Assembly: GCA_024696725.1 (NCBI GenBank)
Contig: JAILGO010000114.1
Span: forward strand, 1 to 22,458
Origin: Eubacterium sp.
GTDB lineage: Bacteria > Bacillota > Clostridia > Oscillospirales > Acutalibacteraceae
Reading direction: 5' to 3'
DNA: 22,458 bases
Shown one piece after another: positions 3,185 to 9,198 of this stretch; position 1 is the first letter of the stretch, and every line of letters starts with the position of its first letter. The translations under genes and the position numbers were made by a program. The notes below the pieces were generated by a model that was not told the DNA's origin, did no database searches, and worked only from the letters and a program-made list of their open reading frames with translations.

Positions 3185-3553
3185 TTAAAGTACTTCCGGA
3201 GCGAGAGAGAGAATCTTCATATAGTCCTTTTCACGAAGCTCTCTTGCTACGGGTCCAAAAATACGGGTGCCTCGCGGGGTTTTATCCTCACGAATAATTA
3301 CGGCAGCATTCTCGTCGAAACGGATATACTGTCCATCATCACGACGTACACCTTTAGTTGTACGAACGATGACTGCATTAACAACTTCACCTTTCTTAAC
3401 TACGCCGCCCGGTGCTGCTTTCTTAACAGTTGCGATAATTACATCGCCGATATTTGCATATCTTCTGCCTGAACCGCCGGGAACACGGATGCAAAGAAGC
3501 TCTTTTGCGCCGGTATTGTCAGCGACTTTAAGACGACTTTCCTGTTGTATCAC
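3185..3553 (-). CDS. rplN: 50S ribosomal protein L14
   Basis: Encodes 122 residues, exactly the family length, when started at the GTG at 3551-3553, which reads as the conserved [19 protein letters not shown]. The frame is open to 3586, but the extra 11 residues are not L14-like and the AGGAGG (3562-3567) lies 8 nt before the GTG. L14 sits at the subunit interface. This is the first gene of the spc half of the cluster and is separated from rpsQ by an unusually long structured spacer. Confidence 0.97.
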
Positions 3554-3722
3554 AGTGTTTTCCTCCTTCGTACTGCAAAATAACACTTTGCGTTTTTGCA
3601 GTTATTATTTTCAATATGACTAAATTAATTAGTACCTGTTTTGTCGGCTGCAGGACGGCGAACCGTCCTATATACAATGTATATAATATACAGCCGTGAT
3701 TAAAAGCCTACAATCGTAATGA
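3554..3722 (-). promoter_or_regulatory. Structured 169-nt rpsQ-rplN spacer, candidate cis-regulatory RNA
   Basis: Read as minus-strand RNA, this spacer can form a three-way junction. The closing helix pairs 3689-3696 with 3645-3652 (8 bp, one G-U). The second arm pairs 3679-3685 with 3669-3675 (7 bp, 3-nt loop). The third arm pairs 3663-3668 with 3653-3658 (GGACGG/CCGTCC) around a TTCG tetraloop. A small hairpin (3619-3633) follows, then a 9-bp helix (3594-3602 with 3572-3580, ACTGCAAAA/TTTTGCAGT) ending 4 nt before the rplN Shine-Dalgarno. The pairings are seen directly. A regulatory role, for example ribosomal-protein autoregulation at the S10/spc boundary, is inference. Confidence 0.55.
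3682..3715 (-). promoter_or_regulatory. Weak possible promoter before rplN
   Basis: On the minus strand, TTGTAG is followed after 17 nt by TATATT, giving 3/6 and 5/6 matches to the sigma-A hexamers. A transcript starting here would begin inside the downstream three-way junction and lose its closing helix. The -35 is poor and the region is AT-rich, so this may be chance. Readthrough from the S10 promoter is enough to explain expression. Confidence 0.2.
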
Positions 3723-3977
3723 TTATTTAGCCTTTTCTACGATTTTAACAACGCGCCAGTTCTTATCTTTGGAAAGCTTACGGGTTTCCATAATCTGAAC
3801 CTTATCGCCGAGCGAGCATTCGTTGTTCTCATCGTGTGCTTTGTACTTAACGGTCTTGTTTACAATCTTATTGTAAAGCGGGTGCTTAACTCTGTCGCGG
3901 ATTGTAACAACGACTGTCTTGTCCATCTTATCGGATGTAACGATACCGATTTTTGTTTTTCTGAGGTTTCTTTCCAT
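3723..3977 (-). CDS. rpsQ: 30S ribosomal protein S17
   Basis: Encodes 84 residues, standard for S17, a primary 16S rRNA-binding protein with an OB fold. Conserved segments are the [20 protein letters not shown]-terminus and the [21 protein letters not shown]-terminal block. It is the last gene of the S10 half of the cluster, 15 nt downstream of rpmC. Its stop is followed by the long structured spacer before rplN. Confidence 0.98.
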
Positions 3978-6829: not shown

Positions 6830-6928
6830 TATAATTCTCCTTGTCTGCGGATAACTTTGCGAAGGGATGGCACCCTTCATACCTCATCGTCCGCCGAATT
6901 TTGTTGCTAATCTGTATTAATACAGTTG
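6830..6928 (-). promoter_or_regulatory. Structured 99-nt rplW-rplB spacer
   Basis: The minus-strand RNA has two elements. The first is a perfect 14-base palindrome CTGTATTAATACAG (6912-6925) three bases after the rplW stop, which can fold as 5 bp with a TTAA loop. The second is a nested structure closing GCGGA (6890-6894) on TCCGC (6847-6851), with an inner GAAGGG (6873-6878)/CCCTTC (6861-6866) hairpin and 6-nt loop. No promoter or reading frame was recognised. Function is unknown. Confidence 0.4.
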
Positions 6929-8879: not shown

Positions 8880-9198
8880 TTTAATTTCCTCCTGAGAAAC
8901 AATTTGTGGATGCGAGCATCCGAACTTTTTCTCAACGCCTCCGTGTGTTCCCATCCGTCTCTTTAAATTAACCGAATGGATTTTCATTCGGGACACGTTT
9001 CGTTCTCTTTTAATATCAAGCGTTCGCAAGTCACTTAATATTTTAAAGAAGCTCGGATATAAGCCGCCCGATTTTAAACCGAACATACTCCGCCGAAATT
9101 CCCGCTGGGTTTTGCGCAACCTCCGGCATCATCGCATTTTCTTTGCGTTTATTAATGACCATATATATATTAAATTAAGATATGGCCCAAACGCAGGC
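8880..9198 (-). promoter_or_regulatory. Long structured 5' leader of the S10 operon
   Basis: About 320 nt separate the inferred transcription start from rpsJ. The visible helices, in RNA order, are as follows. First, TGCGTTT/AAACGCA (9189-9195 with 9144-9150) enclosing an 8-bp arm (9180-9187 with 9157-9164). Second, a 9-bp helix (9034-9042 with 9012-9020) with a 13-nt loop. Third, GTGTCCC (8990-8996) with GGGAACAC (8945-8952) around a GAATG/CATTC hairpin. Fourth, a two-tier hairpin, TGAGAAA/TTTCTCA (8928-8934 with 8893-8899) enclosing GGATG-CTCG-CATCC, whose 3' arm runs into the AGGAGG ribosome binding site. Regulation by L4 or another ribosomal protein is inferred from location only. Confidence 0.6.

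Follow-up and report, generated by a model that had tools for sequence, protein, structure and literature searches.

In the 22,458-nt contig analysed here (the window; Eubacterium sp., JAILGO010000114.1), rpsQ and rplN lie on the minus strand of an S10-spc cluster and are separated by a spacer of 169 nt (3554–3722), rpsQ ending at 3723 and the GTG of rplN standing at 3553 (Table 1). The intergenic gaps of less than 40 nt that a first-pass annotation had ascribed to the cluster were found for most of it, with rplW-rplB (99 nt) and rpsJ-rplC (66 nt) as exceptions. The spacer RNA folds as had been drawn, with an 8-bp closing helix, a 7-bp arm and a 6-bp arm with a UUCG loop, followed by a second hairpin. 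The minimum free energy (MFE) of the whole spacer was −42.2 kcal/mol, compared to −29.5 (sd 3.6) for 200 dinucleotide shuffles (z −3.54), none of which was as good. The 52-nt three-way junction alone (3645–3696) reached −24.0, compared to −11.3 (sd 2.4) for 500 shuffles (z −5.2), and a stability no better than that of shuffled sequence, which had been named as a reason to abandon the element, was therefore not observed. The junction combines an AT-rich palindrome with a second, GC palindrome that is nested at one of its arms. The second hairpin (ACUGCAAAA/UUUUGCAGU) is as close to the rplN Shine-Dalgarno (SD) sequence as annotated, its last base (3572) lying three bases before AAGGAGG.

Table 1. 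Features of the rpsQ-rplN spacer and other elements of the window.
Feature	Position	Strand	Remarks
rplN (L14)	3188..3553	minus	start codon GTG; first gene of the spc part
Conserved core: A/U-rich strand, hairpin and rplN Shine-Dalgarno	3562..3610	minus	AAATAATAACTGCAA-N(3-7)-GCAAAGTGTTATTTTGCAGTACGAAGGAGG; alignment A1
Hairpin ACUGCAA/UUGCAGU	3572..3602	minus	9 bp in this genome by extension
Variable loop segment N	3592..3595	minus	AAAC here
AATTTAGTCA box	3617..3626	minus	upstream of the core; frequent, not invariant (alignment A1)
Three-way junction	3645..3696	minus	lineage-specific insertion
GC palindrome GGACGG-UUCG-CCGUCC	3653..3668	minus	nested at 3' arm; missing or different in relatives
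AT-rich palindrome	3668..3690	minus	one arm of the three-way junction; similar sites elsewhere in genus genomes; single site in the window's own genome
rpsQ (S17)	3723..3977	minus	last gene of the S10 part
Structured leader before rplB	6845..6896	minus	rplW-rplB spacer; candidate rplB-operon leader
RF03136 match	9061..9140	minus	before rpsJ; 39.2 bits, gathering threshold 35.1

The first-pass annotation had taken the junction as the important unit of the spacer. A structured element is indeed present, but the conserved part is the second hairpin with its flanks. As the first 100 loci include duplicates, our counts refer to 52 distinct genomes unless stated otherwise; 50 of these belong to the genus and one each to two further genera (G498 and G530), and they were placed on a tree built from rplN and the DNA downstream of it. 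Outside the loop segment N, the core was identical in 51 of the 52 genomes, representing three genera; the exception, G042, has kept the hairpin arms alone, with a short loop. N itself occurs as nine strings in the clade, with lengths of 3, 4, 5 or 7 nt. With G042 set aside, the 45 fixed columns of the core underwent no change on the tree. On the same tree, the 49 fourfold degenerate columns of rplN changed 6.3 times on average (10 of them never), and its 240 first and second codon positions changed 0.375 times on average (211 never). The constraint on the 49-nt core equals or exceeds that on the amino-acid-changing positions of L14, and the core provides a concrete, cloneable object for tests. 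Of the 51 genomes with the exact core, 49 have it 8 nt from the rplN start codon and two have it at 7 nt, whereas its distance to the rpsQ stop codon ranges from 38 to 314 nt. A small open reading frame or an N-terminal extension of L14 was rejected since the loop lengths of 3, 4, 5 and 7 nt break the frame; in loci L043 and L044, an upstream GTG read from the sequence is out of frame with rplN.

In the genomes searched, the rplN core is clade-specific. A pattern search and a covariance model (R1) each found it in 57 of 80 genus genomes. Among genomes with a completeness of 90% or more and a contamination of 5% or less, the figure was 46 of 51. Pattern and model were both built from known members, and strongly diverged forms may escape them. 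Among 60 of these genomes, all 44 with a full rplN match carry the core with rplN downstream, the remainder consisting of 15 without an rplN match and one with a contig-edge fragment alone (G020). The core was present in 13 of the 20 genus genomes that were added later and absent from the other 7, which were screened for the core alone. The gene downstream was rplN in all 52 genomes of the tree set. R1 gave one strong match per genome, at rplN, and weak second matches in G007 and G014 (E 0.07–0.08). With strict filters, a search of 390 other genomes from the order, including 39 from the same family (Acutalibacteraceae), gave nothing convincing. A match in G447 (E 0.004) lies within an apparent gene for what we take to be a sensor kinase and was discarded as a chance hit. 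Direct reading located the core in L105, L106 and L108 among 80 further loci, two of which were unreadable, and in L242 and L243 among 27 loci from the family, but in none of 31 loci from other families. Among the loci read, it was absent where rplN identity was 88% or less.

The ACUGCAA/UUGCAGU helix dominates the predicted folds of 53 distinct sequences with a probability of at least 0.70, and the nine loop variants have MFE values of −11.5 to −14.2 kcal/mol (z −2.8 to −4.5). None of the seven stem pairs differs among 15 distinct sequences; since nothing varies, covariation lends the stem no support and speaks neither for nor against it. Folding onto the fixed 3' strand was somewhat better for the observed loops than for random ones (Fisher p 0.005, uncorrected for relatedness and composition), an effect carried mainly by GAT and GATGA and measured against random loops less A-rich than the observed ones, which hints at pairing between loop and 3' strand. 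The rplN SD sequence is mostly open in the predicted folds, with partial pairing in a few species such as L018, L055 and L067. Alternative helices or a pseudoknot (AAUAAC/GUUAUU; GCAAAGU-GUU-AUUUUGC; an S8-like register) were rejected, as the best of them was 6.5–9.3 kcal/mol weaker than the hairpin across eight loop variants. RNA folded without the last hairpin strand was not more stable than shuffles at the 5% level (fractions of 0.052–0.226 of 500 for the nine variants).

We compared the core with regulatory elements described for other ribosomal protein operons. In E. coli, the spc operon is controlled by uS8 at rplE, the third spc gene, where the binding site resembles 16S helix 21; a 2024 review states that a structure like that of E. 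coli is not found in B. subtilis and describes spc regulation as unknown there and in species other than E. coli and V. cholerae (PMC10931766). Both the E. coli site and the rplN core are next to the translation start of spc genes, but the core is located upstream of rplN and bears no sequence likeness to rRNA. In local matches to 16S and 23S genes of its own genus, 300 of 300 and 251 of 300 shuffles, respectively, were as good as the core; these rRNA genes came from G047 alone among four genus genomes searched. Judged on sequence only, the core thus resembles 16S helix 21 no more than shuffles do, and rRNA mimicry was discarded. A helix register arranged somewhat like the S8 core can be drawn in the rplN core, but it is 6.7–9.5 kcal/mol weaker than the MFE fold.

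In line with the first-pass annotation, which had recognised no known leader family in the spacer, an Rfam search gave no match at the rplN element, and none at 3500–3800 with E values up to 10. RF03136, the S10-Clostridia ribosomal protein leader, matched before rpsJ and not at the rplN element; it shares the cluster and the role of ribosomal protein leader but precedes a different gene and has a different fold. Table 1 of Eckert and Weinberg (2020; PMC7247131) lists 20 ribosomal leaders, none of them for rplN. These are of the same kind, structured and directly upstream of ribosomal protein genes, and significant covariation is reported for all 20, whereas the rplN core does not vary. No rplN leader was found in a literature search that covered subscription journals thinly.

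Given these findings, we favour a reading in which the core is a clade-specific, translational ribosomal protein leader of the spc operon with predicted protein binding, and we put its probability at roughly 45%. The first-pass annotation had proposed cis-regulation at the point where spc begins, and that proposal survives for the SD-proximal hairpin but not for the junction. The rpsQ-rplN spacer is about 95–370 nt long across relatives (79 nt in G042), which makes tight coupling of rplN to rpsQ unlikely, and translation of rplN is probably started anew. A cis-acting RNA module at 3562–3610, tied to translation initiation of rplN, would make this first spc gene an independent entry point for ribosomes. 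The invariance extends over stem, loop and link to the SD sequence and suggests recognition that reads the letters, and for this reason a ribosomal protein leader is our first choice. The invariant hairpin, so near to AAGGAGG, is well placed for a protein that competes with the 30S subunit. A protein encoded by spc would bind the hairpin and the conserved 3' side and hinder 30S loading a few nucleotides downstream, and expression of rplN and the genes coupled to it would fall; with the SD sequence mostly open in the predicted fold, repression would need the bound protein. As ligand, uS8 is our best single guess by analogy with E. coli, whose spc operon it is known to regulate, and uL14, the product of the next gene, would come second. 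The next gene is, however, a poor predictor of a leader's ligand, as Eckert and Weinberg warn (PMC7247131). The absence of covariation, a usual feature of published leaders, and of rRNA-like sequence, the narrow distribution and the retention of the arms alone in G042 count against a leader.

The first-pass annotation had proposed a ribosomal protein ligand or an mRNA processing site at the spacer, both of which are inferences from the sequence. As a processing or stability site, the core would be cut by an endonuclease in the A/U-rich AAAAUAAUAA, and the hairpin would shield the spc mRNA at the 5' end so created. We consider this explanation unlikely: protection needs a stem and not fixed letters, and the core is invariant in stem, loop and SD link, even though the arrangement of an unpaired A/U-rich strand immediately followed by a stable hairpin is conserved. 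The region from 3400 to 3900 contains no intrinsic terminator (a GC-rich stem followed by a T run), and rplN may well sit on a longer transcript, which speaks for processing. Another explanation is that the core is a constitutive initiation module, comprising a standby site, the hairpin and a strong SD sequence, from which rplN is translated independently of rpsQ and without a regulator. Such a module would leave the unchanging letters of the hairpin unexplained, including the loop-side GCAAAGUGUUAUU, and it seems improbable to us despite its agreement with the fixed distance to the start codon, the variable distance to rpsQ and the mostly unpaired SD sequence.

Action at the level of DNA, as an operator or as the promoter of a separate spc transcript, is very unlikely. 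The sequence ACTGCAA..TTGCAGT is an inverted repeat, and a scan found four promoter-like sites where 0.9 were expected, one of them (TTGTTA-18-AATAAT, 9/12) on the coding strand at the rpsQ end. The spacing of the arms differs by up to 4 nt between species, and by more in G042; because it varies with the loop, an RNA hairpin suits the data better than a DNA operator. In addition, genus genomes hold no second strong copy, the two further R1 matches being weak, and the variable zone upstream of the core accommodates inserts of various lengths. The weak promoter-like site at the rpsQ end may nevertheless allow spc to have its own transcript here.

That the three-way junction itself is a functional regulatory RNA, as first read, is highly improbable in spite of its significant fold in the window, and the conserved pairing sought in the spacers of close relatives did not materialize. 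In 30 of the 52 genomes the stretch between rpsQ and the core is too short for the junction, whose place is taken by 38–45 nt that are nearly unfolded (ΔG no better than −3.2). A nested-palindrome junction, read by eye, is present in three of the 52 genomes, namely that of the window (G000), G049 and G100, and the latter two have a comparable nested hairpin whose letters differ from those of the window. Any palindrome pairs with itself, and matching arms are therefore weak evidence for function. The distribution of the junction over these three species implies three gains or losses, a number imposed by branches with good support; a history of one gain and two losses is compatible with the tree. 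Multi-branched MFE folds were obtained for the zone upstream of the core in 10 of 52 genomes, chiefly those with long inserts. An AT-rich palindrome like that of the window is found in a subclade of 13 genomes (support 100/99), except in G006 and G038, and in the opposite orientation in G028, elsewhere on the tree. Allowing up to two mismatches, the palindrome TATATTATATACATTATATATAG had 38 sites in 29 of 80 genus genomes, compared to one site for its backward control; 9 of these sites are at rpsQ-rplN and 29 elsewhere, and the window's genome has a single one. Further members have palindromic inserts that differ from this one and sit elsewhere in the upstream zone; such insertions pile up upstream of the core with none inside it. 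With no room for it in 30 genomes, three changes on the tree and its AT arm at other sites, the junction was rejected as a conserved RNA; it is a recent passenger insertion in an insertion-tolerant, palindrome-collecting zone. This case shows that palindromic inserts beside a genuine element can mislead a search for structured RNA.

Two observations concern these palindromes. Copies of TATATTATATACATTATATATAG have varied flanks (e.g. L189, L199, L207 and L210). The rpsQ-rplN spacer of L055 (G034) holds a palindromic insertion of about 270 nt between rpsQ and the core that resembles a small non-coding mobile element.

A second structured leader was noted in the window, directly before rplB. It comprises a stem, either GGC..GCC or GGAUGAU..GUUAUCC, a 5' loop that has GUAU at its end, a hairpin and a 3' loop of GCAAA or similar, followed by the rplB SD sequence. 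We aligned 30 of 37 distinct trimmed sequences, having dropped seven near-identical genus rows and, earlier, the outlier L305. The alignment had 60 cells with two-sided changes, compared to 25.8 (sd 5.7) in shuffles, and a covariation score of 0.537, compared to 0.318 (sd 0.021); none of 500 shuffles scored as high, and slid versions reached at most 0.215. Pair counts and pair types were not beyond shuffles (83 and 444 of 500, respectively); in the outer stem, 75% of the cells are paired. The model built from it (R2, E up to 0.01) matched 36 of 43 genomes of the same family and 4 of 351 others of the order, with some of the searched genomes having supplied model sequences. In all 30 fetched loci rplB follows directly, and Rfam gave no match for this leader in the window or in four relatives.

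The rplB leader and the rplN core occur in the same cluster and clade, are both near an SD sequence and have the string GCAAAGT(GT)TAT in common. With filters off and E values up to 10, R2 did not match the rplN core in the window or in 10 chosen loci. In 12 sequence comparisons, 3, 12 and 22 of 1000 shuffles were as good in three cases and 66–276 in the other nine. Kinship of the two elements is thus unproven, as R2 found no match and nine of the 12 comparisons were not beyond shuffles at the 5% level. It is conceivable, although we regard it as doubtful, that the clade has split its S10-spc super-operon into three units of translation that are tuned separately and headed by RNA leaders of their own (at rpsJ, rplB and rplN, with that of rplN recently gained and frozen in sequence). 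In that case, the rplN leader would be the first spc regulator in Firmicutes and an example of a new ribosomal protein leader that arose within one clade.

Two further observations were made among the loci with the core. The entry for L105 (JAMPEQ010000018.1) is titled Bacteroides sp. but has the S10-spc locus of the Clostridia genus, and the title looks wrong. Although R1 gave no second match in G003 at E values up to 0.1, DNA similarity revealed a partial second copy of the core in this genome (L101, 533–572; contig C246), which has 18 identical bases (GCAAAGTGTTATTTTGCA) and is flanked by open reading frames that are presumably kinase-like and DUF2992/yjdF-like.
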